Of a stretch of 64,000 nt of DNA, positions 1-52,425 are shown one piece after another. The notes beneath the pieces were generated by a model. The model was not told the origin of the DNA. It made no database searches and saw only the letters and a list, made by a program, of their open reading frames with translations. Source of the stretch: Collinsella sp. An2 (lineage in GTDB: Bacteria > Actinomycetota > Coriobacteriia > Coriobacteriales > Coriobacteriaceae); contig NZ_NFJW01000002.1 of the NCBI RefSeq assembly GCF_002160065.1, positions 62,001-126,000 of the forward strand, written 5' to 3'. A program made the position numbers and the translations under genes. Numbering within the stretch: the first letter of the stretch is position 1; every line of letters begins with the position of its first letter.

Positions 1-3000
1 GAAGGTCTTCGATCGGGAACCGTCGGCGGCGGTCTCGACGCCGGCAAGGTTGTCGAGGTCGAACGAGATGGCACCGAACGTCACGTTGCCGTTCACATCA
101 TTGGTCGCGGTGGCACCGTCGCCCTCCGGCATCGGCGCGGCCGGGTCGTCCGAGGACAGCGTGAATGTGAACAGGCCCTCCAAGTCGGGATTCGCGGCCT
201 CGCCGTCGGCGTAGACGAACGACTTGCTGCCGGACGGGGCCACCTCCACCGACTCGCCGGTAGAGTACGTGTTCGTGAACGCGATGCCGCCTCCAGGCAG
301 GTTGGCGGTGGCAGTCAGCGTGCCGTCGCCGCTGTCCACGACCGTGACCGTGAAGTTAAAACTGCTCGCATTGGCGCTCACGCCGGCGGGCAGACTGTTG
401 GTCACCTCGTAGGCGGTGTAGTTCAGCGTCCACGTGCGCTGGCCATCGGCGTTCACACCCTTGGTCGCGTAGCCAGCAGTGACCGCCTGCGGCAGCGAGG
501 TCAGCGTGCCCGTACCCTCATCCGCGGTCGTGTAGCCGAGGCTGCCGAAGCTGACGGTGCCGTCGGCGGTGTTTTTCGCGGTGGCGACCGGATCGAGAAG
601 GCCGTTCGCGGTGCGTGGGGCGATGGCAAACGAGAACTCGTCGGCCTGCAGGCCGCGTCCGGTCAGCGTCTTGGTCGCAGACACGTTGGCGGCACCGCTA
701 TCACCGGTCGTAGCTTTATAGGTGTTAGTGAACACGAGCGCATCGGAGGCATCATCGCCCGTTGTCACCAAAGTCGCCTCAAGCTGACCCGTCATCTGAT
801 TCGGGGCGACGCTCACGGTTACGACCTTCTGCGACTCGTCCTTGGAGAGGCCCTCGATGCTGAAGTCGTTTTCGGTTACCACAAATTGATAGGTGCCCTC
901 AGCGCTGAACGTGATGTTGCCGAACGACTTCTGATGCACGCCATCGCCGTTCTCATCAGTCGCGCTGATAGAAATCGACGCCGGATTAGGCATGGTCACG
1001 GTGCCGACCTTAACGGCTTCCTCGGTTTCTTCGCCATACGGAGCAATCGTGAAGTCAAAGCTCCAACCATCGTCCCAGTCGGTGCCCACCACACGCTTGG
1101 TCACCACCAGGTTGGTGGCACCGTCGAGCATGGCGCTCGGTGCCCATGTATTGGTCACCGTGGTGGTCGCGGTCTCATTGAACTCAATCGTGCCTATCTG
1201 GTTATCGTCGTACAAGGTCTTGAAGTTTGCCACCTGCTCCTCGGTCACCTGATAGGTAACACCTGCGGGGATATTAGTGAATTGCGCGGTCTGGCCGGCT
1301 TCTAACTGGAACGTCACTGCGCCGTCTTCACCCACGGTGACATCCGCGGCTTCACCATCGCCGATTGCCAGCCGCATGCCGGCAGCCGTAGCTTCGTCCT
1401 GCGTCAGCGCAATGGTGTCCTCCTGACCCTCTTCCGCAGGATGCACAAAGGTCACCGTGAAGTCGAATGTCGCATCCTGGTTAGCGCCCTGACCTGTCAC
1501 CACCTTGGTTACATTGAGCGCGCCAACCTGCTGGTCTTTGATGTGCACAATGGTCACGCCGGTGAACAGATTAGTGACGTTCGCGCTGATATCCTGACGA
1601 GGCGTTGTTGCATGATCGGCAATGTCGCACTGCTCAATTGACAAGCCCGGGACCCCCGCCTCTACGGTATAGGCCCCTCCACTCATCATCTCGTAGTCGA
1701 GCACCGCATCGCCGTCATCCGCAAACTCAAGATGCTGAGTTGATGCACTGCCGTTCGGAACCCATTTCCAAGAGCCATCGTTCTGCTGCTCACGCAACTG
1801 CGGCGTCGCAACGATATCGTGCAGCGTCGCGTCAACATCGTCGGCGGTGGCAAACTGTACCATCGAACGCACGATACGTCCCACGCCGCGGGTCACGCTG
1901 ACTCCGTCGCCATCCGTTCCAGCGTCGGCGTACACGCCCGTGTCGTCGACGATGATTTTGGCAAAGTTCTGGTTCAGCGCATAGCTACTCGGAGCCGCCG
2001 TCTCAACCACATAGTACGTACCCGGCTCGAGCTCGGTAAAAATCACCGCGCCGCCAAGATCGATCGAGTCCCCGTTCTTCTTGCTCAACGTGCGGGTCGT
2101 GTCCGTCTGAATCGCGTCTTCGGCCGTCACATCATCCTTGAGGGTAACCGAACCGTCCTCGGCAACATTTACCTGATCAGCCTTGAAGAGCGACATGGTG
2201 GCACCGTCAACCGCATTGCCGTTCTCGTCGGTCTTCTGCACCAACACGCGATTCAGGATATTGGAAAGGTAGATGCGCGCCGAGAACTGACGGTCGAACG
2301 TGTCGGGATTTGTCACAGCGTACGTATTATCCTCAGTCGCCCCGGCAAGAGTGCTTGCCGTGGTGTAGTAGTACGCTCCACGATAGCTTGTTCCGCTCTT
2401 ACTATTCGCATCCTTGAAGAACTCATAGTCCTGGATTCGCCCAGGCAGATTCTTGATTTCAGTCTGATAGGCACCTGACGTGGAGATGGTGAACACCGCG
2501 TTGGTTGATTTCCCCGCTGCGATGATGTCGCTCATTGCGTTCTTCTTGCTCACATTCCAGCCACTGAGAGCATCACCCGTGACCGGGTACCACTTTCCGT
2601 CGCTGCCCTGCTGCTCGATGACTGCGAAGAGGACACCACTCTGTAGTTCGTCCTTGCTCAACGTACCGTTGTCCTGCCGATCGATTTGAACATCGCTTGT
2701 CGTCGTGGCGGTCACCTTAGGCTGCGCGTACGCGCCCGTTGTCCACGGATCGCTTGAAAGCAGCAGATTGGTTTCTTTTCCGTTTGCCGTTTGATCGGCA
2801 TCGTAGTGCTGGATATACAGCGGTATTTCCGTTGCGGCCCTATAGCCATCAGGTGTGTCGGTCTCGACAAGCGTGATGTTCTTGACGCCATCAGCCCACA
2901 GTCGATCAAGCGTGATGGGATAGTCGTCCTGACCGATAAGCGTAACGGTGCCGTCCTTCTCCGTCACGACGCCTTCGCAAATGAGGTTCTCGTCGGAGAT

Positions 3001-4334
3001 TTCCTTGTCATTGGTGGTGTCGTACACGTTGAACGTCGCGCCGTCGATAAAGTTGCCCTCCTGATCGACCTTGGACAGCTCGGTCTCGGGGATGCTCACC
3101 AGGTTGTAGCGCAACGACATGTTGGAGTCGTTGTTGCCGCGCTCAAGGTAGAAGAAGTCGAGGGTATGGTAGGTCTCATCGGCAAACGTGCTACCGCTAC
3201 CGTTGTTGCTCCATTTGACGTTGTTCTCAGCCCGCGCGTTCTGGTAGCATGCGCGAAGCGTCTTCATGTTATCGGGCGTAACGTCATCGCCACTCGAAGC
3301 AGTCACTTTAATCTCGCCCGTGCTGAAATCGATAGTGATGCGCGCGGCGTCGTGGATGCCGCCCAAGTCGCCCACGAGCACGTCGTCGATGTAAATCCAC
3401 ACGTCGTCATCGCCCGAAAACTCGTAGGTCACCTTGTCAGCGTCTTCCGCGTCATTTACATGACCGCCATACTGCTGCACGAACTGCGTGGACATGTGCA
3501 TGCCGAAGTAGTGGTTAAGGATATTACTCGAAGCCTTAACGTCCTTCTGGACAAGAGCGGAGTTCTTGCCATTCTCGGTAAATACATCCGCCGCATTGTT
3601 GAAAGGGAAGAATTGGCCATTAGGCGAGTTGGTGCCTTCGTGCATCACACCCCAGGTGTTGTAAAGCGTAAAAGTGTTGGCGCTGGAATCGAACGCTGCA
3701 TAATTGGCACTCTCGAAGCTGCCACCCTGAGCTTTCGTCTGCTCCGACGAGGCGTTGTAATAATAGTAGCCATCAGAGTCTACCTGTAGCAGACCCTGCA
3801 CGCCATAATAACCTTGCTTGCCGGCTTGGCTGGAATCATCGAAAAGGTACGCAAGAGGCTCGTCAGCAAGCACCTGCGTGCCGCCTTGACCATAATTATT
3901 ATTGTTCAGATTAACCCATCCGCTAATCGTTCCGGCAGCAATTGAGGGATAACCGTCGACCAGCGTGTTTTTAACTATGCCCGTGCGAGGCCCGTTGCCA
4001 GCATTGGTCCATGAATTGATAACATCGCTTGCGTCCCGAGGCGTACCCGTATTGAACTTCAGCTGATGGTCATTGTTAATACCACCGTTATAGTTATAGT
4101 TATCGTCCTCGCTAGGCGCTTCAGTATTGGCTGTCCAATAATCGAACAGGTCGATCGTCGTCCCGTTGGGCGAGACGCCCTGCACGGTGTACTTCGCGTC
4201 CGTCACTGCCGCCTTCGCAATCGTCGGAAGGCAGAATACCGACGTTGCAACGAGCGCCAAAACTGCAAGGGCTGAGGCTATCTTCCTGGAGCGCCCCCCC
4301 CCGAACTTATTTTCGTTCTCCTAAATAAACCCAT
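1..4334 (-). CDS. Giant cell-surface protein 1 (fibro-slime, SpaA/Cna-B and FctA-type domains); 3' part beyond window; phase OFF
   Basis: Partial gene of at least 1,440 codons reading off the left edge. I choose ATG at 4334: it has a strong GGAGG (4345-4349) ten bases upstream. With the 9-G tract present (4294-4302) the ATG frame ends after 18 codons. With 10 G it runs into a textbook signal peptide (basic stretch RSRKIA, hydrophobic core, cleavage after TIAKA) and an open frame to base 1. Around residues 240-400 lies a fibro-slime/PA14-like domain (SGDDDVWIYIDDVLVGDLGG), a carbohydrate-binding type seen in adhesins. SpaA/Cna-B-like domains follow near residues 420 and 700 (KTDENGNAVDGA). At least four FctA/Spy0128-like isopeptide domains come next (ATKTLTGRGLQADEFSF, ending VFTNTY). 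The anchor is outside the window. Role as a stalked wall-anchored adhesin is inference from these families. The OFF reading could be a homopolymer sequencing error. Confidence 0.85.
4294..4302 (-). repeat. Poly-G tract (9 G on coding strand) inside the signal-peptide region of surface protein 1
   Basis: Nine consecutive C on the plus strand, i.e. nine G in the minus-strand coding sequence, about 11 codons after the ATG at 4334. Frame arithmetic: the in-frame condition is 7 or 10 G; 9 G gives an 18-codon peptide ending in TAG. Homopolymeric G tracts at this position are the classic substrate for slipped-strand phase variation. Confidence 0.85.
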
Positions 4335-4967: not shown

Positions 4968-5345
4968 CTACTCGGTCGCTCCGTCCTCGCCGTCCAAAGC
5001 CGGCTTGTGAGCCTTCGAGCGCTTCTCGGTGTTAAACGTCTTTGCCCGGGCTATGCCGAACTCCGTGGCCACGTACTCGTTGCCAAGCTGTGCGCCCGAG
5101 GTGTCGAAGACGGGGGTTGACTTGACCTCGCCGTCGCGGCGGAGCCTGGTGAGCGCCCGGTCGAGCGATCGCTCGCAGCACCCAAGGCGATGCGCCAGGT
5201 CTGCCTTACGGAAGGTCACCGACCCTCGCAGCTCGGTCTCGCGCACAATCATCTCCAGCACGCGCTCGTGCACGAATGCGTGGCGACCGTTGATACGTCG
5301 GCTGATTCCTGTGAGGGACGAGCCCTCCCCCTTCTTCATAGCCAT
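4968..5345 (-). CDS. Small winged-helix DNA-binding protein, coupled to surface protein 2
   Basis: 125 residues. The central part (about residues 25-95) reads as a winged helix-turn-helix: a long first helix (FVHERVLEMIVRETELRG), then FRKADLAHRLGCCERSLDRA as helix-turn-recognition helix, a basic stretch LTRLRRDGEV and a possible beta wing (GNEYVATEFG). The C-terminal tail is charged. Its ATG is three bases after the TAG of the giant LPXTG gene and the pair shares the terminator at 4909-4944, so it is almost certainly co-transcribed and translationally coupled. A second ATG two codons downstream is possible. I do not recognise a named family. A regulatory role toward the surface genes is inference from fold and position. 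Confidence 0.75.
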   Translation of the reverse strand: MAMKKGEGSSLTGISRRINGRHAFVHERVLEMIVRETELRGSVTFRKADLAHRLGCCERSLDRALTRLRRDGEVKSTPVFDTSGAQLGNEYVATEFGIARAKTFNTEKRSKAHKPALDGEDGATE

Positions 5346-5348
5346 GAG

Positions 5349-8300
5349 CTACTTCTCACCCCGCTTCCGCAGAATGACGGCGCCAGCGATGCAGACGATA
5401 CCGATGCCAGCCACGGCGGCGATGGTCGCAGGTGCGGTGTCGCCGGTGCCAGGCAGCTCGTCCTTGGGCTGCTCGGACTCTTCAGGCGTAGTCGGTGTGG
5501 TCGGCTCTTCAGGAGTCTCAGGCTCCTCAGGCTCGACCGGCTGCTCGGGTTCCTCGTAATCGTTGGTGAAGACGATGCTGTCATCAACGCTCCACGTGAC
5601 CTGCAGCTTGCCATCGACCTCGGTAACCGTAGCGGTCGCTCGATGGGTGGTCTGATCGTAGGTTACGCCATCATGCTGAATGCCCTCGGTGTCCGGGTCG
5701 TCGTCCGCAGGCAGGACCTCAGAAATGACAAACTCGTAGGTTCCTTCCTTGTAGAAGGTGAAACCCTTGCCGAAGCTCACGCCGCCGTCAGCCGCGTTTG
5801 TAGCCGTGAGGCTCTTGGGAGAGACGTCTTCGCCGTAGTCCTTGGCGGTCGCGATCTGGAAGGTGAACTCGCCAGCCGTAAGGTCACGCCCGGTCAGGGT
5901 CTTGGAGATGTCCGTATCGGAATCCGTAGGATCGGACGGCTCGCTGGGCGTAGGCTCTTCGGGCTCGGGCTCGGGCTCAACAGTGCCACCACCGCCACCG
6001 TTGTAGGTGTTGGTAATCGTCGGGTTATTGCCCTCGACCGTTGCCTCAAGCTGGCCGTTGTTATCGGTCACCGTCACCGTAATAGTCTTGGGCTCGTTGT
6101 CGTAGTCCCAGTTTCCATCGGTAGTAGTCGTGATCTCGGTCACCGTGAAGGTATAGGTGCCCGCCTTGGTGAAAGTAAAGTCACCGAATTCAACCGTTTC
6201 GGAACCCTGCTTGCCCTTAAGGTCGTTAGTCGAAACCGTCCAGCCGTCATCGGGCCAACCAAGGATGCCGGTCGGATCTCCAGAGGCAAGCGAGAGCTTG
6301 AACTCGAATTCAGACGGAGCAGCTGCACCTGTAACCGTCTTGGTTACCTTGAGGTTTTCCTCGTCGTCGCCAACGGTCACGTATTCAGCCTCGTACGTGT
6401 TGGTAAACACGCCGCTATTCACATTGACGCTAGCCACGAGGCTCCCGTCCTCGTTCTCACTTACCGTCACCGTCACCTTGGCGACATTGTCCGAATAGGT
6501 AATGGCCTCATTGTCGCCATGAACCTCGCGCACCTCATATTCATAGGTACCGGCCTGTGTGTATGTAATCGGCCCAAAGCCAAAGGTCGCCTCATCAGAT
6601 TGACCAGCGTCAGGCCCTGTCACAGTTACTCGGTTAGTGCCCGGTGTTGGAATCAGAATCGAAGTACCATCAGGTGCCTCAGCGTTGACGGGCGCAATCT
6701 CAAAGGTGAACGCATCACCGTCCCACTCTTTGCCAGTAAACACCTTCTTGAGGCCAAAGTCGGCTGCTTCAACCTGAACCTTAGTACCCTCCTCGTACAC
6801 GTTTGTAAAGGTGAGGTTGGCAGAGCTGTCCTTATCGACGCTTGCAACGAGCTGGCCATCATCGCCACGCTCCACATTCACCACCACTAGACGCGGAGTG
6901 GTGTCATAGGTCAAATCAATATCGGACCCAGCTTGCTCTGCCACGTCAAAGTAATAGGTGCCCTCACTCTTGAACGTTATGTTGCCGAAATAATTGCTAT
7001 GCGCTTCATCTTCGTCAGTGATGGTCAAGCTGTCAGCGTTATCAGGAAGCAGGATGCTCCCGTTGTCTATCGCGCTCTGTGTCGCATATCCATGGGCGGT
7101 CAGAGTGAATACGAATTCATCTTCACTTGTCCAATTACGCCCTACAAGCTGCTTCGTTACATCAAGGTATGTAGCGCCGTCCAACGTGGCGTCGTTTTCG
7201 CCATTCGAATCGTACGTATTCACAAAGGTCGTGTCGCCCGTAGTGTTAACGAGAACAGACTCAAGGATTCCGTCCTGATCAATGTCCTCCACTCTATAGG
7301 TAGACGTGAACACATTGCCCGAATAGGTCATATGCTCATCGAAGGCTTCTTCGTTCTCGGCAGGAACAACCTCTTTGATTTGGAGGGTGTAGACGCCTGG
7401 TTCGGTGAAGATAATTTTACCGAACTGAACCTTGCCATTGGCGTCATTGCTCATGACGGTCGGGCTGGGCAGAGTGACGCCATTAACCGGAGGTTCAGAA
7501 ACCCCGTCAAGAGCGCCGATGCTTAGAATACTCAGCTCAAAGCTAAATTCGCCTTGCTGAAGCGGCGTCGAGCGATCGCCCTCGAGAACCTTGGTTATTT
7601 CAAGGGGAGTCTGTACTGCTTTATCGAGATTGAAGCTGTTGGTGAAGACCACTTCATTAACGGTGGCATCCTCCCCGACTGGGGTGAATACCGAATCGTC
7701 GTAAGAGCCCTTTTCAATCGAGTCAATGCTCGGAATGTATTCGTTTTTCTCCTCGTCAAATTGAACATTGATCGTCACTAAAAACGCAGTCGTATCGTAC
7801 GTAAGTCCAGGAATCCGATTCTCCTCTGATGGGATTTCCTCAGTAATGATGTACTGGAAGTTCTTGGCGTTCTGCCCGTCCATATCAGAGGCCGTATATG
7901 TAATGTCTCGCAACAGCTCAATTCTGCTTACAGGAAGGTTGTCGGAACCAACACCGTTGGCATTCCCCTGAGCATAGGTCTTTCCCATCGGCGCCCCATC
8001 GACCGGTGTGACGTCGAAGTAGAACTGCCCCTTTGTCAGCTCGCCTCCCTCGAGAACCTTCTTGCCGTAAAGACTAATCGAGTTGTCTTGGTCAGTAGTC
8101 TGAGGAGTATAAACGTTTGTGAATGTTGGATTTGCTCCTTCCACAACCGTAGCAGAGAGCTCGCCCTTCATATTGTCAGTAACCTCAACAACGACAACCT
8201 TGTAGTCCTCGGCATAATACATGTTGGGGTCAGCATTTTCGGGCACAACTTCCCTAATTGCGAAACTGTAGCGCCCAGCAGCGTTGAACACAATGTCGCC

Positions 8301-11300
8301 GAAGGATTCCTTGTGGCCCTGGGAATTCGACGTGATTTCGATTCCATTCGCGTTATCGGGCAGTATTACGGATTTGCCTATGGCCTGATCAGTAAAGTCA
8401 TCAGCACCAGACAGCTCGAAAGCGAAGGAGTCTTCCTCCTCCCACTCACGCCCAACGAGGTTTTTCGTTACCGACAGGTTGTCCGCACCGCTCAGCGTAA
8501 CCGACTCCGGTTCGTATGTATTGGTAAAGACACCCGCGCCACCATCCGTAAGCTCGACGCCCTTAATCTCGGCAGAGACCTGGAGCTTACCAGCACCATT
8601 ATCCGTCACGGTAAAGGTTACGCGAGCAGTGTCCGTACTGTAGGAAACACCCTGCGTGTCGGTGCCTTCGGCGGGCTGAGTCTCAGCCACGTCGTAGGCG
8701 TATGTACCGGCCTTGGAGAAGATAAAGCTACCAAACGAGAAGCCCTTATCCTCATCGGCGCCTGTCACCTTCGCCGTCGTATCCTGGGGCATAGCAGCCT
8801 CAAGATCGTCTTCGGACACAGTGGAACGCTCGGCGTTAGGCGTCAGCGTGAACTCAAAGCTGTCCGTTTGCTTCCAATCGCGGCCGATAAGCCGCTTTTC
8901 GAAGTTGACGGAAGCCGGGTCTGCCGCAGACGCGTGGTAGCTGTTCACAAACGAGGCCGTAGGATAGGTGCTGGCATCATTGGTCTTGAAATCAGCGCTG
9001 TTATAGGTAGTCGATGCGCCGTCCTTTGTGACGGTAGTGACGGTGCTCATGGTACCGTCGCCATCGTTGGACACGGCGATCTGAACCGTTACCGGCTGGC
9101 CGTCATAGGTATAACCGTCCCCCTCTTGATGTTCGTCGGTTTCCGCAACGATGAAGGTAAACGTCTTGCCCGCGTCATCCTCGTCGAACGTCAGGTTGCC
9201 AATACCCTTCCACATGGCAGCGGTGCCGTCGGGGGCTCCCTGCTCGTTGGAAAGCACCGTCGTAGCTTCCGCTAGCTTGGCCGCGGAATCCGCGTCATCC
9301 TCAGGCGTGGTCACGGTGAAGTTAAACTGGTTGGCAGTGAGCGCGCGGCCGTTCAGCGTCTTGGAGAACCAGACGCCACCAGCCTCGCTGTCGTAGTCCA
9401 TCGAGGACGCATAGGTGTTGGTAAAGGTAGCGGAACCGTTCGTGGTTACCGGGGCGGTGATGGTCAGCTGGCCGTCAACGTCCTTTACCTCGAACTGCAC
9501 CTGATATGTATGGCTGTCATACTTCCATGCAGCATTGGGAGCATCCTGCTTCTCGGTGATGTTGAACGTATAGGTGCCCGGATGCGAGAAGGTCAGGTTG
9601 TCGAACTGGACGTTCTGCGAGCCATCCTTCTCGATGGCGGTCGTACTCCTCGAGGTGCCGTCGGCGTCGATGCCCGTCACCCAACCGTTGGTCACGGCGT
9701 CCGCAGTGCCTTTGTCAGCCGCCTCCATGATGAAGGTAAACTGCCCGTTGGCACCAGCAGCGCCATCAAGCTGCTTGGTGATCTTCAGCACGTTGGACAC
9801 GCCCTCGGTGGTTATCGAGGAAGCCCGGTAGCTGTTGGTAAACGTAAAGCCGTTGCCGGTCACCGTGGCGATGACGTTGCCAGTCTTCTCGTCCTGCGTA
9901 ACGGCGATGGTCACCTTCTTGGCCGACATGTCATACGTCATGCCCTGATATGTCACAGTCTGGGCGACATCGTCACGCACACCGTTGTCCAGAGCCTCTT
10001 GCGGAATATCCTCTGTTATCTGGTACTCGTACGTTTTGCCCACGTCGTCAATGCCGAACTCGATATCCGAGAATTCGATGGCACCGGTTCCGAGGTTGCC
10101 TGTACGGGTCTCGCCGGGCATGGGGGCGCCAGCAGTCACGGCAGTCAGGTTGAAATAGAAGTCGTTGATGTCAAGCACACTACCGGACGTAGCGTCGGTG
10201 AAGTTCTTGGTACCTGTAATGTTGGCATAGTCGACATCGTCGCCGCCGAAGGTGTTAACGAACGCCGCGGTGGCAGCGATCGGCCACTGGCTCTCATCCT
10301 CACCCGTGGAATCGCCCTTGTCATTGAACGTATTGTATATGGAGCCGATAGAAGCGCTGAGATTGCCGGCGCCGTCGTCGGTCACCTTGACCGTCACGCG
10401 GTACACAGCGTTGGAGTAGGCCAGGCCGTACTCGTCGCCCTCGGCCTCCTGTACCAGGTAGACATATGTCCCCACACGGTCATACTGGATAGAGCCAAAC
10501 TGGAAGGCAACCTCCTGGTCCTCCGCATAATCGTTGCTGTTATCATTCGTCAACGTAACGGAAGCAACACCATCCTGCGCGCCCTCGGGAAGCGGCGCGC
10601 CCTCGCTAGAAGCAGCAGGCTTTAACGTGAAGGTGAAGCTCTCTCCGTCCTTCCAATCTCGTCCGGTCAGATTCTTTGTGCCTTTGATGCTGCCATCGGC
10701 CAAGCTGGTGGCAGCCACGGTGTATGCGTTGGTATACGCCACTTCAATGGTGTCATTAGATGCGACGGTGCCCTCTGCAATCGCACCGTTCTGGCTGGCG
10801 ACGCCTTCAACCGTGTTGGAAGCGGTGTAGCCGTCAGCGGCGGTCTCAGTCACCGTAAAGCTGGTGTTGGCAGGAAGTCCGCTGATAACCACGCGCTCGC
10901 CGTTCTTAAGCGTGAGGGTGCCACCGTCGGAAATCTGACCGGTTGCGACAGGCTGGGCGCCGTCCTCAAGCTTCTGCACATTACCGTCGACAGCGAGCGG
11001 TTGGCCGGCAGCGTTGTACTTGACGTAATCGAAGTTTCCGGAAACGGTGGTATCCGCACCCCCGAAGTCGACGGTGTAGGTGAAGTCCTTGTCGTTGTGC
11101 TCGGCACCAGTGTTGCCCCAGTCAACGGTCTTGCTGATCTGCAGCGAGCCGGAAACCGGGTAGCTGATCTTACCGTTGTTGCCAAGCGAGACGGTCACGT
11201 CCGAACCGACCCAAGAAGGACTGATGGCATCCTTTGCAGTGCTCGTGGTGTTGTCGGACTTGGCGGCCTCAAACTCCGTAGCGCGCGTCAGGCGCGGAGA

Positions 11301-13579
11301 GCCCTTCTGGATGTAATACGTCCCGCTGTCAGAGTTGAACCGAACATATTGACCAAGTTGCCCCTCTTGTGCGGTAAAGGACACCCATTCAGTATGGAGA
11401 CCGTTCTCAGCATAGTATGTGCGCTGATAGTAGTACGTGCTGCTAGGCGTGTAGCTTGTTGCAGGGTTGTTAGTATCCTCCGTCGCGTAGATAGGGGTGT
11501 CCTCGGTGAAGTAGTAGAAACTATTGGTATCTGCCGGCTGGAAGGTAGCCGTAGTGGTTCCCGCATCGCCCCTGCTATATGCATTGGAGAGGAAGTAGAC
11601 GTTACCGTCATCGTCGATGTGACTGGAAATATAGTTCGCCGAAAGCTTCGACGCATCGATATTGTCGCCATCCATCACGTCAGACTTGAGCCCAACGGTG
11701 TAGAACACACGGATGGGGTATGCGTCGCGCACCGAAGTCGTAGTAGTCGTTTCACCGTCAACCGTCGTGGTATTCGCGGTATACAGACGAAGCGGCACCA
11801 GGTTGGACGGAATACGAACGGTAACGGTGTCGCCTTGCTCCAGTGTTGCTCCGTGGCTAACGGTGATTTCGATAGTGCTCAGATCATGATCGCCAGGATA
11901 GACGACCCCATCATCTGTACCGTTGCTGACGGTTCCCTGGAAGGTGTAGGTAGTAGAAACACCATCATCCGAGTTCGTGGATGACACCTGAGTGAACTCC
12001 TCGCCGGCAAAAACAATGGCCTTGAAGTTCTTTACTTCCATATAGCTGCCGAGAGTATCGGTAAACGTGAGGTAACCGACATTCTCACCACCGATGTTCG
12101 TCGTGCTCTCAATAGGTGACGTAGCTCCAGTGCCGAAATCGTCATAAATGGATTGGAAGACGTCATTCAGAGATTCCGCGTTATCCGCTGCAAAGTAGTA
12201 ATCGCCGTCGGCACGTTCGCCCAAGGTGCAGTTATCAGAAAAATCAGCTCGGCTACTATCTGTATTGTGGGATTGAGCAGTGGGATAATTGCTCGATACC
12301 GCGTTCATGAAGTAGTTTGCGTCGTGGGTGGTGTTTCCGGTGCCGGTCAAATCGTTTGGATCAGCACCCTGGAACACGCCAATGGAGTAAACGGTGACCC
12401 CGTCTGCTTTCATCTCCCGCGAAGTATTGACGGACTTGCCCGCGTTATCGTTCTCGACGCGCTGGCCGCTGCCAGGCATACCGTCGGTGAAGAAGATGAC
12501 CACCTTTTTGGCATCGCTGCGGGCGCCGTCGCCCACACCGCCATTTTGGCTGCCATCTATGATGCTCTGGGCCATTTCAAAGCCCTTATCGGCTTCCGTA
12601 CCTCCGCTATAGGTTAACCCGGTTACATAGTCCTTCAGGTCGGTAGCATTAGCGCCTTGGGTGCAATTAATGAAGTACTGTTGATCGCGCCAGCCACCCG
12701 TGCTAAATGCAGAGGCGTTATCAGAATACGAAACGATAGAAACGCGATGCTGTTGCGAGGCATCCTTGCCCGCGTTCTCATCGGCAACGGTATCAATGAA
12801 GTTGGTGACCGCGGCCTCCATAGCCTGATCGATACGAGTTCTGCCCGTAGTCGAACGCGTATAGAACTGGATGTGGGAGTCATCGGGATCTTGCGCACCC
12901 GTCTTGGGATAAACCCGGTCACCGGTATCCGCACGACGCCAACCCCAATCCGGGTCCTCAAGTATTCCCCAGCCACCAAAATTATGGCGCTCAACTTGAA
13001 CGTACGTTCCATCATCATCCTGAATATAGTACGTCCCATTATCTCTAATGCTATACGCTTCGCTGTATTCGTAGCTCGTCAAATAGCTATCGTCCATCGA
13101 GCCGGAGCGATCGAGAACGAGCACAATATCGAGCGGCTGGTTGATAGTGGTCTGACCGGAAATGTTCGCCGCGGAAGACAATGCCGAGAGCCCGACGAGC
13201 GCGGCGTTCTCGTCGTTCTCGATCTTGAACGTCGGCTCGCCGCTCGTACTGGTCAGCTGGACATCGTCGCTGTACACGGACTTGTCGGTCCAGATGCGGC
13301 CGGTGTTTTTGGTGGAGTCGCCCCCCTGCGTGGAAACACCGGTTCCGTCAGTGTTGCTATACCACGTGTCATGCGTGTCGGGGTCTGAAATCCAGACACC
13401 CGTTTCAGCCGCGCGGGCAATACCTGCAAAGGACACTACCGACACTGCCAGCAACAGTGCCGACAGCACGCCGATCAGGCCCACCCGCCTAACTTTGGCG
13501 GAAGTGCGAGGCGTCTCACCAAAGATTACTCTTTTGAGACGCCCCCCCCCCGCAACTTATTTCGTCCAGAGCTTGCCAT
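5349..13579 (-). CDS. Giant LPXTG adhesin 2: VWA head, about 12 FctA-type isopeptide domains, LPGTG anchor; phase OFF
   Basis: About 2,743 residues when in frame. I choose ATG at 13579, with AAGGA at 13589-13593; the tract length present (10 G, 13542-13551) makes it end after 17 codons, whereas 11 or 8 G joins it to the long frame. The long frame alone would be called from GTG 13484, but that start lies inside the signal peptide and loses its basic part (KVRR). The order is: signal peptide ending ARA; VWA domain with complete MIDAS (DRSGSMDD, GGTEADKG, FFTDGMPGSG); a linker domain; then twelve repeats of about 110 residues of the type TKxLxGRxW...FTNTY. The Lys, Glu and Asn of FctA/Spy0128 isopeptide folds are visible. 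A Pro/Glu-rich spacer, LPGTG, hydrophobic segment and RKRGEK tail close it. Known family role: sortase-anchored tip adhesin or stalk. The ligand is unknown. Confidence 0.9.
13542..13551 (-). repeat. Poly-G tract (10 G on coding strand) inside the leader of surface protein 2
   Basis: Ten consecutive C on the plus strand, ten codons after ATG 13579. In-frame lengths are 8 or 11. The tract abuts a 9-bp perfect inverted repeat (GGCGTCTCA 13510-13518 with TGAGACGCC 13535-13543), which could stall the polymerase and favour slippage. This is the longest mononucleotide run seen in the window; the second longest G/C run is the equivalent tract of surface protein 1. Confidence 0.87.
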
Positions 13580-13617
13580 GACTACCATCCTTCACTCTCA
13601 GTGCACGTTACGTTTAC

Positions 13618-13634
13618 TGTGCATTTCGTGCACA
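13618..13634. promoter_or_regulatory. Palindromic operator candidate upstream of surface protein 2
   Basis: TGTGCA-N5-TGCACA perfect palindrome about 40 bases upstream of ATG 13579, with a further GTGCAC half-site nearby at about 13602. Position between likely promoter and start suggests a repressor or activator site. The binding protein is unknown. Confidence 0.4.
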
Positions 13635-13927
13635 TCCACCGTTTTGGCACAGCGATAGATAGTCAAATTCTAGGCAGCGTCACCTTGACAATCATCAAAT
13701 CATTTTGTACCCCCTCTCTCCGAACTTGCTTAAATTGCAAGTCGGGCGGCGGCATATACCTGCGAAGAACCGTTCACCGATAATTCGCCGGCCACTTGTC
13801 ACATTCGTAACATCAGACGTCGCGCTGCTACCCCTTTGTCTTAACTTCAACGGGCGCCACAACCGCGGCACCGTCGGCCACAAACTCCATCTCGCACGAA
13901 CCTAAGCACGCTCAGATTCCTTCGATA

Positions 13928-46512: not shown

Positions 46513-49500
46513 ATGGACATCCGCAACCATCTCTACACCCTTTGGCGCACCTGCCGACGTGCGGTGCGCGACGGGCCCGTGAAGAAGGTAAGACAGCTCT
46601 GCGCGCGAACACAGCGTAACGAGACGCCGCCAGCGCCACCGTTGACGCATCAGCACAGGCACCGGCGCGGCATCGGAGCGCTCATAGCCGGCGCAACCAT
46701 CCTGGGAGGACTTGCTCCTTTGCTCTGGAGCGCCTATGCCGCGCCCGGTACGGCCGTCATCGAACGCGTCGCCGAAAACGAGTTCGAGCCTTTGGGCTAT
46801 GAGGCCTCAATCGACTTCACCGACATCGAGGTCATCGATGGATTCCAAGAGGTCCCAGACATCGGCGTCTACTACGACCACCGCGGCATCGGGGACCCAG
46901 GGGTCGGAGAGACCATCGACCCCGACGACCTTTATGGACAGGTCACAGGCACACCGGGTTTTGCCCTGGACGGCACCGACAGCAGTCTGAAAGGTCGCGC
47001 GGCGCTGCGCTACACCGGCGGCACCTATGGAAACGACCTCTACGACGCCATCGTCACCTTCGAGGACTGGAATGTTCTGGAACCGATCAACGGATGGGAG
47101 AGTCACTGGAGCTACGGCTTCCACGATGTCTTCCAGCCGGGCATCTATATCTCGAAGGACTACAAGGCGCAGTCCGATAAGGACACCGGGTATCAGAACT
47201 TCAACATCTACACGGTTGGTCTGGACGCACTGCAGGTGTCGGTCGAGTTTGTATATGCCGGCACGACCTCACCGTTCCCGGCTAAGGGCCATATGACGTG
47301 CATCGACCTGGATACGTTGCAGGCGTTCACCTTTGGCGGCGCCATTACGGGCGGACGCATCGTGGCCGAAAACGACCACCTCACCCTTGAGCGCGACGAC
47401 ACCTATGTCCAAAGTGCAGACACCGCGCTGTCCGTCGATTTCAGACACTCGCCAGACCAGTATAAGAACGGGCTTGTGGAGGTGTTCTACGACACCACCA
47501 AGGATGCAAACAACTTGGGCACTCCTATCGAGCTCTACTTCTATCCCGCGTGGTATGGTGATCGGGGCGATACCCAGGCCTTCTTTGCTATGACGAGCGA
47601 CTTTCTCACGCTGCCGAACCCCAATGAGAATCCGTCTGGTCAAACCGATATCACCAAGACGGCCGACAAGACGTCGGGGGTCTCGATGGGCGACCATGTG
47701 GAGTATACGGTCGATTATCAGGCGCATGAGCAGGGTGTGAACTGCCGCCTGGGCTATCGCTATACCGCACTCGACATCGTTGACGTGTTGCCAGCCGAGA
47801 TGCGCTATGTCGACGGCTCGGGCAAACTGCTCGATGGCGACGGCAATGACATCACCGAGCAGGCAGGTGTGGTCGTCTTTGAGGGAGACAACGAGCACCC
47901 GGTAGAGAATACCGTTCGATTTGAATTCGACCGCGACTACCTGTCCACGATGCCCATGACGGGCGAACACTATCGCTTTGTGTTTGCGGCGGAACTCACC
48001 GAATATCCTGCAGACGGCAGCCTTACCGTACGCAACAGCTCCTATGCGCTCATCAACAACACCGGCAACGTGCCCTCGAACAACGTCGATACCGAGCTGG
48101 TGAAGCCGGAGCTTGTCGTGGATAAATCGGCCGACGCCTATGAGTACGAGGTGGGCGATGTCGTGACCTACACCGTCGTCTATCAGCAAACCGCCGCGAA
48201 CGCCCAGGCGCGCAACACGATCGTGTCCGACAACGTTCCCGAATACCTCGAACTCATTCCCGATAGCGTGAGTGCAACCGGCGTCAAAGATCTGCCGCCC
48301 GTCGAGGTCAACGCCAACGAATGGTCTATCGACTTCGACAAGTTCAACTACGGCGACGAGCTCGTGGTGACCTATCAGGCACGCGTCCGGCAATCGGGCG
48401 TAGGCAAAGAGGTCGTCAACAACGCGGGCATCCATGCGAACAACGCAGCCGATGCCGACGACCCCGTAGAGATCTATATCAATACGGCAAACATGGATAT
48501 CTCGAAGGATGTTGATCGCTACGAAGGCTATGTCGGAGCAAGCGACCAATTCCCAGGATACTTCGAGTACACCGTCCGCGTCTCCAACACCCAGGCCGGC
48601 ACGGTCGCTAACGACGTCGTCATCACCGACGACAGCCTGCCTGACGGCATGCGGCTGGGGCGCAACAACGACGGTTCCCTCATGATTGCCAGCATCACCG
48701 AAAACGGCACGACCGTCGAGGCGTCGTGGACAGGAGACCGTGCCGAGGGCACGCTGTCGGACATCTCGTATCGCATCGGCGACGACGACCATACGCATGA
48801 CCAATACACGACCGTGACGCCCCACTGGAACCTCGATCCCGAGGGAAATGGGTGGCGCATGACAATCGACCACCTGGATTACGGCGTTGAGCTCACCATT
48901 GTCTATCGAGCCTGCCCGGAAGATGCGGTAGCGGGCTGGGAGGTCGTCAACAAGGCCGGCGTCGAGGCGGGCAACAGCCTGCCCGACGATGACACCGCCA
49001 AGGTGTGGATCAACCAGCCCCATCTTGTCGTCGAGAAGACAGCGAGCAACGACAGCTTCACCGTCAACGACGAGATTCTCTACCACGTTGTCGTCGACAA
49101 CGAGACGCCGGGAACGCTGGGGAGAAACCTTGTCATCTCCGACCTGGCACACACCGAAGGTGTCGAGTTGCTGCGCGACACAATCAAGGTTTACGACAGC
49201 CGCGGAGAAGACATTACCGATGCCTGCACCGTCACCTACAAGCACAGCCCTCAAGGCGGCGAGACGTTCATAGTGGAGACGCACCGCAACATCGTTCATT
49301 CCGCAGACGAGCGACCTCTCTGGGAAGACGGCGAGCTGAAGAACGTCGACGGTAACAACCCCCTTGGTGTTGAAGGTGAGACGCAGGTCTCCGTTGAATA
49401 CCGCGTGAAAATCAACGATTCCGAGCTTGCAGGACAGACCGTCGACAACACCGCCCTTGCCGTCACCGATGAGCCGAACACCCAAACAACCGACGATGAG

Positions 49501-51492
49501 GTCGTCGACGTCAAGGGACCGAGGCTTGTGGTGGACAAGAACTCCGACCAAGAGGTCTATCAGGCAGGCGAGACGGGACAATACACCCTTGTGGTGCGCC
49601 AAACCCGTGAAGACGTCGTTGCAAAACAGGTCGTTATCGTCGACAAGATGGACGAGGCGGGGCTCGCAAGCATCGTCGAGGGGTCCGTTGCGGCCACGGG
49701 ACCTGACGGAGAGTCCATCGACGCCTCAGCGACGTATATAACCGACGAGGACACCGGAGACATCGTAGGCTTCGAGCTCGAAACGAACACCGACCTTGCT
49801 GATGAGGGAACCATCACCGTGACCTACGACGTCACCATGAAGACGGCAGGATCAATTCTGAATAACAAAGTCCAGGCCTCAGCCACCAATGCCATAGGTG
49901 CCGTCGACGAGCACGAGGTGCGCATCGTTGACCCCTACACGCAGGTGGCGCTCACCAAAGAGGCGGACAGCAACACGCACCGCATCGGCGAGACGGCTGT
50001 CTACACCGTAACCGCCGCCATAGCGGACCACCCTGCAAAGAACGTCGTCATACGCGACACGAGCCTGCCCGACACGATGCCGATCGACCTGAGAGGCATC
50101 GAGGTTGAGGTCGACGAGCGCGATGTCGACAACTTCCAGCTCGACGTCGATGGAAACGGCTTTGCCGTTCATCTGGGAGACCTGGACGCAGGCACGGTGG
50201 CACGCGTCGTCTACACCGCTCAGGTGCGCGACGAGCGTCTGATGGGTCAGTCCGTCGTCAACACGGCCATGCTCACTTCGGATTCGCTTGAAGATCCCCT
50301 CCGGGCCGATGCATATGTAACCGTTCCCGTCGATGAACCCGACGTTACCCTCACAAAAGATGTCGATCGCGACCAGATACACGTGGGCGAAACGGTCACC
50401 TACACCATCGAGGCGCAAGTTGCCGAAGGCACAGAGGGCGCCAAGAACGTCGTCATTGGAGATGCCAGCCTGCCCGATACCATGCCGATCGATATGGCAA
50501 GCATACATGCATGGCTTGACGGGCGTGAAATCGACCCGGTGACGGCGGATATCTCTGGCAACACCTTCACCATCGGCTTTGGAGACCTCCGGCAGCTGGA
50601 GTCCGTCCGCGTCACCTATCAGGCAACCGCCTCAGACGAAGGACTCGCCGGTACCGAGGTCGTCAATACGGCCACGCTCACGAGCGATAGCCTTGACGAC
50701 CCGCTGACAGACACGGCAACAGTCAAGGTCGTCGACGAGACGCAGACCGTCCTGGACAAACAGGCGTCAGTAGACGAGGCCCAGGTTGGAGACACGATCA
50801 CCTATACCGTGACCGTCGTCGCAGGCACCAACTTGACCGATGCGGTCATAACCGATTCGGACTTGCCGCGGGGCGTGGTGATCGACGAGCAGTCGATTGA
50901 GCTGACGGTGAACGGCGAGCGTATCGTCGCAGCCCCGACCATGGAAGGAACCGGATACACCGTACAGGTGGGAGACCTTGCTGCTGGAGACAAAGTCACG
51001 CTTACCTATCACGCCGCCGTCGAGGAAGACGTTGAGACCACACGGGCCGAGAACACGGCCACGCTCACCAGCCCCGACCTCGCAGAGCCTGTTGCCGACA
51101 CCGAGACCGTCACAATCGCGGAGCCGGAACAGCCTGGCACCCAAGAACCCGACGACGAGCCGAAGGAACCGGACAAGCCCTCACAGGACGAGCCGGAACC
51201 TGAGGAGCCCGACGACGAGAAACCGAGTGACGAATCTCCAGAGCCAAGCGATGACAAGACGGCCGATCCGGAGGAGCCGACGAGCTCCGACGATGAGACG
51301 CCCAAAGCCTCGACGCCGACCAGCTCGAAGGAGCCCGGGAAGAACCTTGGCAAAACCGGCGACGTCACCGCTGGCATCATGCCCCTGGTAGGAGCCGCTG
51401 TCGCCCTTGCGGGGGCTGGAGGCATCTACGGATATCACCGTCATCGCCACCGCGATGACCAGGATACCTGGGGCATTCATCACACCTCGTAG
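46513..51492 (+). CDS. Large DUF11-repeat surface protein with atypical LGKTG sorting signal
   Basis: 1,659 residues. A long basic leader (about 50 residues) precedes the hydrophobic part IGALIAGATILGGLAPLLW and cleavage near SAYAAPG, so export is expected. Residues about 75-380 are a unique N-terminal domain with no family I recognise (FGGAITGGRIVAENDH). Then come eight DUF11-like repeats of the form DITKTAD...GDHVEYTVDY or VVDKSAD...GDVVTYTVVY, each ending in a NTA-type strand. A Pro/Glu/Asp-rich wall-spanning spacer and NLGKTGD, a hydrophobic helix and HRHRHRDD tail follow. This is an LPXTG layout with Gly in place of Pro. GGAAGG precedes the ATG. A class B sortase gene follows by 120 bases. 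Confidence 0.9.
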   Translation: MDIRNHLYTLWRTCRRAVRDGPVKKVRQLCARTQRNETPPAPPLTHQHRHRRGIGALIAGATILGGLAPLLWSAYAAPGTAVIERVAENEFEPLGYEASIDFTDIEVIDGFQEVPDIGVYYDHRGIGDPGVGETIDPDDLYGQVTGTPGFALDGTDSSLKGRAALRYTGGTYGNDLYDAIVTFEDWNVLEPINGWESHWSYGFHDVFQPGIYISKDYKAQSDKDTGYQNFNIYTVGLDALQVSVEFVYAGTTSPFPAKGHMTCIDLDTLQAFTFGGAITGGRIVAENDHLTLERDDTYVQSADTALSVDFRHSPDQYKNGLVEVFYDTTKDANNLGTPIELYFYPAWYGDRGDTQAFFAMTSDFLTLPNPNENPSGQTDITKTADKTSGVSMGDHVEYTVDYQAHEQGVNCRLGYRYTALDIVDVLPAEMRYVDGSGKLLDGDGNDITEQAGVVVFEGDNEHPVENTVRFEFDRDYLSTMPMTGEHYRFVFAAELTEYPADGSLTVRNSSYALINNTGNVPSNNVDTELVKPELVVDKSADAYEYEVGDVVTYTVVYQQTAANAQARNTIVSDNVPEYLELIPDSVSATGVKDLPPVEVNANEWSIDFDKFNYGDELVVTYQARVRQSGVGKEVVNNAGIHANNAADADDPVEIYINTANMDISKDVDRYEGYVGASDQFPGYFEYTVRVSNTQAGTVANDVVITDDSLPDGMRLGRNNDGSLMIASITENGTTVEASWTGDRAEGTLSDISYRIGDDDHTHDQYTTVTPHWNLDPEGNGWRMTIDHLDYGVELTIVYRACPEDAVAGWEVVNKAGVEAGNSLPDDDTAKVWINQPHLVVEKTASNDSFTVNDEILYHVVVDNETPGTLGRNLVISDLAHTEGVELLRDTIKVYDSRGEDITDACTVTYKHSPQGGETFIVETHRNIVHSADERPLWEDGELKNVDGNNPLGVEGETQVSVEYRVKINDSELAGQTVDNTALAVTDEPNTQTTDDEVVDVKGPRLVVDKNSDQEVYQAGETGQYTLVVRQTREDVVAKQVVIVDKMDEAGLASIVEGSVAATGPDGESIDASATYITDEDTGDIVGFELETNTDLADEGTITVTYDVTMKTAGSILNNKVQASATNAIGAVDEHEVRIVDPYTQVALTKEADSNTHRIGETAVYTVTAAIADHPAKNVVIRDTSLPDTMPIDLRGIEVEVDERDVDNFQLDVDGNGFAVHLGDLDAGTVARVVYTAQVRDERLMGQSVVNTAMLTSDSLEDPLRADAYVTVPVDEPDVTLTKDVDRDQIHVGETVTYTIEAQVAEGTEGAKNVVIGDASLPDTMPIDMASIHAWLDGREIDPVTADISGNTFTIGFGDLRQLESVRVTYQATASDEGLAGTEVVNTATLTSDSLDDPLTDTATVKVVDETQTVLDKQASVDEAQVGDTITYTVTVVAGTNLTDAVITDSDLPRGVVIDEQSIELTVNGERIVAAPTMEGTGYTVQVGDLAAGDKVTLTYHAAVEEDVETTRAENTATLTSPDLAEPVADTETVTIAEPEQPGTQEPDDEPKEPDKPSQDEPEPEEPDDEKPSDESPEPSDDKTADPEEPTSSDDETPKASTPTSSKEPGKNLGKTGDVTAGIMPLVGAAVALAGAGGIYGYHRHRHRDDQDTWGIHHTS

Positions 51493-51501
51493 CATCCGTA
51501 T

Positions 51502-51586
51502 GCCGGCGCCGCAGAGTCCCCAATGGGCGCGGCGCCGGCCTTGGCAGGGCCCGGCGGGGTCGGAGCACTTCGACTCCGCCGGGCCC
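51502..51586 (+). terminator. Two consecutive GC-rich hairpins between surface protein and sortase
   Basis: First: 11-bp perfect stem 51502-51512 / 51529-51539 (GCCGGCGCCGC). Second: 16-bp stem 51547-51562 / 51571-51586 with one G-U pair. No strong U-tract follows, so they may limit rather than stop read-through into the sortase gene. Confidence 0.55.
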
Positions 51587-51612
51587 GGATATTGCACACC
51601 CTGGGAGTCGAT

Positions 51613-52425
51613 ATGTTCTCAACACCTACTATGGGGCGTCGCACATTCATCCTCTTGGCACCGTTTGCTGTTGCCGCGGCGGCGGGCGGCTGGCTCTGCG
51701 CACCTTACCTACAAGGCGAATGTGAATACGCACGAGTACGAGAAATAGCGGGCGCGCAACCTCCGACAGATGTCGCAGATGCCTCGAACGAACGGAAACC
51801 AGCTGCGACGACGGCCGATGAAGACCCCTGCATGGACCGCTCGTTTGATTGGAACGCGCTCTATCAAATCAACTCCGACGTCATCGGCTGGATCTATATC
51901 CCCAACACCCCGATTGACTACCCGATCGTGCAGGCTCCCGTCGACGATCCCGAGCGATACCTCCACACGACCTTTGAGGGAGCCGTGTCCTACCCCAACA
52001 ACCAGGGCTCCATCTATCTCGATGCAAGCAATGCCGGCGATGGCCTTAACGCCTCAGCCCCGCTTCTCTACGGGCATCAGCAACTCAACGGCTCCATGTT
52101 CTCGGCATTGAGCAACAACCACATCACCGGTGTCCTCGAAGAACACGACCAGGCATATGTCTACACGCCAAGCACGACGTGGCGCATAGCGCTCTTTGCG
52201 GCAAACGCTGTCGATGCCTCCACCGAAACAGTTCAGACGTCGTTTCGTGATGCCTCAGAGCTGCAATCGATGCTTGAAGAAAAGCTCTCGGAGTCCGAAG
52301 TTATTCTCTACGATCCAGGCCATATCGAGCAGCTCTGGACGTTTTGCACCTGCAGCTATGGCATCTGGCAGAACCAGCGAACCCTCACCTATGGATATGC
52401 AATCGAGCGTAGAGACGCTACATGA
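51613..52425 (+). CDS. Class B sortase
   Basis: 270 residues. Sortases are membrane transpeptidases that cut a C-terminal sorting signal and join the protein to the cell wall. Signal-anchor helix FILLAPFAVAAAAGGWLCAP at residues 11-30. Class B hallmarks: SDVIGWIYIPNTPIDYPIVQ and NNQGSIYLDASNA. Catalytic His in LLYGHQQLNGSMF, Cys in LWTFCTCSYG, Arg in QNQRTLTYGY. The catalytic motif is TFCTC where class B usually shows TLSTC. ATG 51613 with GGGAG upstream is chosen; the longer frame from 51523 would run through two hairpins. The neighbouring LGKTG protein is the obvious substrate. Confidence 0.9.
   Translation: MFSTPTMGRRTFILLAPFAVAAAAGGWLCAPYLQGECEYARVREIAGAQPPTDVADASNERKPAATTADEDPCMDRSFDWNALYQINSDVIGWIYIPNTPIDYPIVQAPVDDPERYLHTTFEGAVSYPNNQGSIYLDASNAGDGLNASAPLLYGHQQLNGSMFSALSNNHITGVLEEHDQAYVYTPSTTWRIALFAANAVDASTETVQTSFRDASELQSMLEEKLSESEVILYDPGHIEQLWTFCTCSYGIWQNQRTLTYGYAIERRDAT

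Follow-up and report, generated by a model that had tools for sequence, protein, structure and literature searches.

The window, i.e., the whole stretch of 64,000 nucleotides of Collinsella sp. An2 DNA that was analyzed, carries on its minus strand a gene for a giant adhesin, A1, whose body spans 5349..13541 and amounts to 2,711 aa when counted from GTG 13484. A1 combines a signal peptide and a VWA domain with 12 isopeptide domains of the FctA/Spy0128-like kind and a C-terminal LPGTG motif with a positive tail; among solved structures, the streptococcal T18.1 pilin backbone (8f70) is its best relative. The A1 leader starts at the ATG at 13577..13579, which is preceded on the same strand by GAAGGATGGTAGTC; a ribosome-binding site, GAAGGATGG, ends 5 nt ahead of this codon, and a run of ten G (G10) follows at 13542..13551 (minus strand), 28 nt from the A of this ATG. 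A sigma-70-like promoter was sought just upstream of A1, and none was found. Repeated GTGCA/TGCAC palindromes, possibly an operator, are located at 13590-13640 on the minus strand, just upstream of the A1 start.

Reading from ATG 13579 yields 16 codons at G7, 2742 at G8, 20 at G9, 17 at the assembled G10, 2743 at G11, and 21 at G12; the body frame is reached at G8 or G11, either of which places a complete signal peptide on an open frame of ~2,742 codons. The tract length and frame state are those of one assembled consensus, and those of the relatives likewise come from consensus assemblies. A search of viral_contigs with the leader sequence, aimed at other isolates, gave no match. At G10, the adhesin frame has its first ATG/GTG/TTG at GTG 13484, a codon situated in the hydrophobic core, without a basic start and with at best a poorly spaced AGGCGG ahead of it. 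The basic residues of the signal peptide, RLKR...KVRR, are coded in the body frame between the tract and GTG 13484, and the body thus appears to be built for entry from the upstream ATG. A preliminary description of the locus had placed the ATG, a good ribosome-binding site, and the G10 tract at these positions, had predicted a stop after 17 codons at G10 and the full frame at G8 or G11, and had named GTG 13484, within the hydrophobic core, as the sole in-frame start at G10; the coordinates and the frame arithmetic bear this out in full. Its "2.7-kb-residue" frame needs a small correction, the length being ~2,700 residues.

The Adjoining Putative Winged-Helix Gene and the Sortases

The ATG of a gene for a 125-aa protein with a MarR/PadR-like predicted fold (4968..5345, minus strand) lies 3 nt past the A1 stop codon. 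Pfam returned no family above cut-off for this protein; its single-sequence model reaches a core pLDDT of 83-91, and Foldseek with this model retrieved ZitR (E 1e-4) and the PadR-type Rv3488 (E 9e-4) at TM values of 0.57-0.60. With moderate confidence, the protein is predicted to be a winged helix resembling MarR/PadR regulators. A close relative of the gene comes after a second adhesin, A2, with zero gap, and the tight junction between adhesin and winged-helix gene, GGTGAGTAACATG and its variants, occurs in three genera of the family, with or without an upstream G tract. Since the 3-nt spacing predicts translational coupling, the A1 tract would switch the winged-helix gene too. A third gene of this winged-helix family, L032, has its own in-frame G9 in an N-terminal extension (372-380 of L032; C12:60372-60380, outside the window), which an in-frame GTG downstream of the G9 could bypass.

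A broken sortase was also considered for the pair of small frames that follow A1, and this was rejected: the first is the intact winged-helix gene, and the second is without a family match. No sortase stands beside A1 or A2; the genome holds three, the nearest being at C12:41626 and at window position 51892. Far from A1, at 46513-52425 on the plus strand, a 1,659-aa DUF11/AgI-II-C2 surface protein is directly followed by a sortase (match 51892-52395).

Further Tract Loci and Their Placement in the Genome

Five loci in the genome follow the same design, namely the two FctA/LPXTG proteins A1 (G10) and A2 (G9), and, on other contigs, three S-layer-homology (SLH) proteins, L033 (G10), L034 (G10), and L038 (G9). 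At the four loci besides A1, a tract of G9-G10 is positioned ~10 codons past an ATG and precedes an open frame of 1,190-1,713 codons. Of the five, L034 alone is assembled in frame; A1, A2, L033, and L038 have out-of-frame lengths. The ATG of A2 is found at 4332..4334 (minus strand), preceded by GACGGGGAGGATGATTGCAC, and its G9 tract at 4294..4302 (minus strand) is out of frame as assembled and in frame at G7 or G10 (1,723-1,724 codons); the A2 body (1..4293, minus strand), which contains FctA, SpaA, and DUF7601 domains and an LPSTG end, continues past the left window edge to C12:61161. The three SLH genes have a common leader, AAAGGC(C/T)GGT(G/A)CCGCCATG, a motif that was sought in 67 genomes of the family and is present in this genome alone. 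A fourth SLH gene, L043 (G9), was dropped as a candidate switch on account of in-frame ATGs downstream of its tract, which a signal-peptide-like stretch follows.

G runs of at least seven are no commoner in the window than in shuffled sequence, and the genome holds 13 tracts of at least G9, as against ~70-90 expected from base composition. Five of these 13 lie on the sense strand, ~10 codons past an ATG and ahead of an open frame of >1,100 codons. Fewer than 0.1 such placements would be expected even with 845 long genes packed in the genome, a count that is itself an upper bound (P ~7e-8). Because G runs are not over-represented, and five of the 13 sit near the ATGs of long frames, it is placement, not length, that constitutes the signal. 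Those of the other G9 tracts that were checked are mostly intergenic.

Off-Frame Stops and Hairpins Downstream of the Tract

The longest off-frame run after the tract has a median of 8 codons, whereas randomly chosen sites within these genes average 38; in 20,000 resamplings, runs this short never occurred, a result that is indicative, the genes being partly related. This suggests selection for prompt termination in the off state. Directly 3' of the A1 G10, the 30 nt at 13512..13541 (minus strand) form the hairpin-forming sequence CGTCTCAAAAGAGTAATCTTTGGTGAGACG, and the 45 nt past the tract have a folding energy of -13.4 kcal/mol (z -2.4). The same position, directly 3' of the tract, is occupied in L033, L034, and L038 by a GCTCA-TTC-TGAGC hairpin or a variant of it. 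A general model of hairpin plus slippery tract was tried on 22 tracts and rejected, strong hairpins being found at A1 and the SLH genes and not as a rule.

Homologs within the Class and Beyond

A search of 348 genomes of the class, for which residues 1-778 of the A1 body served as query, gave 51 matches, and the 5' ends of the 50 besides A1 were read. A tract of G9-G12 stands between the ATG and the signal peptide in 16 of the 51 homologs (A1 counted); most of the others, chiefly from one large genus with MSKYTRGLLAV-type starts, lack a tract. Tract length and frame state differ among close relatives: two homologs with near-identical leaders have G9 in frame (G056) and G10 out of frame (G057), the Gordonibacter sp. 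An230 gene has G9 in frame (G283) as against G10 out of frame in G268, and the close relatives G111 and G227 have G9 and G12, respectively, both out of frame. Together with A2, the three SLH genes, and a sister-species adhesin (L112), the 16 homologs make up 21 tract genes, the bodies of which, ~1,200 to 3,900 codons long, remain open. Six of the 21 are in frame, where ~1/3 would be expected under free frame drift, the genes being related and not fully independent, and the statistic having been computed on 7/22 with one weak locus that has since been dropped. This count is compatible with one third and not with purifying selection on the frame.

Some relatives display further features near the start. 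The L167 gene (G045 ortholog, 68% identical) bears a G9 past its ATG and a second tract, G8, where the signal sequence ends. Neither of these tracts is in frame, and the arrangement is either a gate of two tracts or an error of assembly. In the L175 adhesin gene (G037), the G10 tract is preceded at ~190 nt by an eleven-C run, possibly a second switch of the promoter type. A 7-bp inverted repeat, CTATCGC-N8-GCGATAG, precedes the adhesin ATG by ~55 nt in L185 and L189 and is conserved between these two species.

In three homologs from Firmicutes, the tract is absent and the basic start of the signal peptide directly follows the ATG. Two of them are ~40% identical to A1, and the third, L048 of Lachnoclostridium sp. 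An131, is 63% identical and is closer to A1 than nearly all of the relatives from the class to which A1 itself belongs; this closeness suggests that an A1-type gene may have been transferred between gut phyla.

Comparison with Known Systems

In Bifidobacterium breve UCC2003, two pilus clusters (bbr_1889 and bbr_0113) rely on slippage during replication at a G tract that separates a short leader from the large frame of a surface protein, and the joining of both frames leads to surface pili; one of the loci has a 2,674-codon frame behind G10, and similar G tracts are listed in other bifidobacteria (Penno et al. 2022, PMC9187656). At one B. breve locus, the annotated tract length was present in only 37% of molecules, and at the G10 locus, losses of one G amounted to 6.5% as against 0.1% for gains, i.e., ~65 to 1 (PMC9187656). 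A1 resembles bbr_1889 in its anatomy, in which G10 lies between a short leader with a good start and a giant LPXTG frame without a start or signal of its own. However, the B. breve pilus cluster contains a dedicated sortase, whereas A1 has no adjoining sortase and is followed by a small winged-helix gene; the host of A1 also belongs to a different class, and SLH proteins in its genome bear the same switch design. This host falls, with Gordonibacter, in the order Coriobacteriales and, judging from the composition of its family, probably in the Coriobacteriaceae. A1 thus shares an LPXTG pilin-type protein and a G tract with the bifidobacterial sortase-dependent pilus system and, lacking the adjoining sortase, is outside it.

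Among Gram-positive bacteria, the FctA/Spy0128-type isopeptide pilins and the VWA adhesins are similar to A1, which has a VWA domain, twelve FctA domains, and an LPXTG end; A1 differs from them in being much longer and outside a pilus operon. In Neisseria, Campylobacter, and Helicobacter, several surface genes per genome carry homopolymers at their 5' ends, in which slippage results in translational on/off switching. These organisms differ from the host of A1 in being Gram-negative and in the gene families involved, and we know of no coupled winged-helix gene like that of A1 in their simple-repeat systems.

Proposed Switching Mechanism and Its Alternatives

We propose, with a probability of roughly 0.87, that the A1 G10 tract, near the 5' end of the gene for a giant adhesin anchored to the cell wall, is a reversible switch operating by slipped-strand mispairing. 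Translation would start at ATG 13579, and replication that adds one G or removes two would join the leader to the 2,711-residue body and supply the start of the signal peptide; the in-frame product would then be made, secreted, and anchored via its LPXTG end. At the remaining tract lengths, translation would end within ~24 codons. Tract lengths would be expected to vary within one population and expression of A1 to follow the frame, all experimental support for the latter coming from B. breve, and the winged-helix gene would probably be switched together with A1 via translational coupling or polarity. The preliminary description had likewise claimed phase variation by slippage, a claim sustained by orthologs that differ in tract length and frame state, by the open long bodies, and by the dependence of the body on the upstream ATG. 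Its phrase "locked OFF", however, has to be abandoned: the consensus length is out of frame, yet the tract is intact, and the wording contradicts the proposed slippage mechanism. Its claim of an OFF state in most sequenced cells also goes too far, as it derives from a single assembled consensus, and what that consensus supports is an out-of-frame tract.

If the loss bias of B. breve holds, the in-frame G11 would be rare for A1, because the loss of one G leaves it out of frame. By this analogy, the on state would be reached less frequently by A1 than by bbr_1889, and more frequently by L033, whose frame is restored when a single G is lost. An adhesin-regulator operon, in which the winged-helix protein would repress or activate other surface genes and so create a regulated set of alternative surfaces, not independent coins, is conceivable but doubtful.

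Alternatively, the frame could be corrected at the level of the RNA or the ribosome, with RNA polymerase slippage or hairpin-aided ribosomal frameshifting such that, whatever the tract length, the full-length adhesin would be supplied at a steady low level. Polymerases tend to slip on G runs, and the strong hairpin directly past the A1 tract, together with the common hairpin type of the three SLH genes, would suit such a process; however, at most other tracts the hairpin is absent or weak, the lengths of the tracts differ among relatives in the DNA itself, and off-frame reading meets early stops. Ribosomal frameshift sites, moreover, usually have a spacer before the hairpin, whereas the A1 hairpin abuts the tract. 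Correction of this kind is hence considered unlikely. It is far less probable still that the real start is GTG 13484 or another internal codon, which would render the upstream ATG and the tract irrelevant: this GTG is in frame at G10, but its position in the hydrophobic core and its poor upstream context, described above, argue against it, and homologs with and without the tract have the basic part upstream of the corresponding point.

The out-of-frame state of A1 itself may be explained in two other ways. A homopolymer error in the assembly, behind which the true length would be constant and in frame, has in its favor that the assembly is a draft of 46 contigs and that such errors occur. We regard it as quite improbable, since out-of-frame lengths recur in about two-thirds of the 21 tract genes, across many assemblies and ahead of bodies that stay open over thousands of codons; the G12 of G227, out of frame, is on a contig of >4 Mb, and an error would not explain why the tracts occur at this one position in surface genes. 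Decay into a pseudogene that is fixed off would also account for the assembled frame; it is scarcely credible for a gene with 2,711 open codons, intact domains and LPXTG anchor, an intact adjoining downstream gene, and a neighbor, A2, of the same design.

Implications

A literature search, which left out most subscription journals, found no report of a poly-G switch for the class Coriobacteriia. Relative to B. breve, the new elements are another class of Actinobacteria, the SLH proteins, the lack of an adjacent sortase, and a winged-helix gene that follows the LPXTG adhesins in tight coupling. Switching of giant adhesins by poly-G tracts, which has been shown for bifidobacterial pili, would thus extend to a second lineage of gut Actinobacteria, in which one genome has five such loci, the proteins concerned fall into two classes that differ in anchoring, and the adjoining regulator-like gene is conserved. 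For these gut bacteria, such genes would be entered in catalogues of genes and in proteomes as truncated or absent, though they may be just switched off, and comparisons of adhesion between strains would need to control for tract length.
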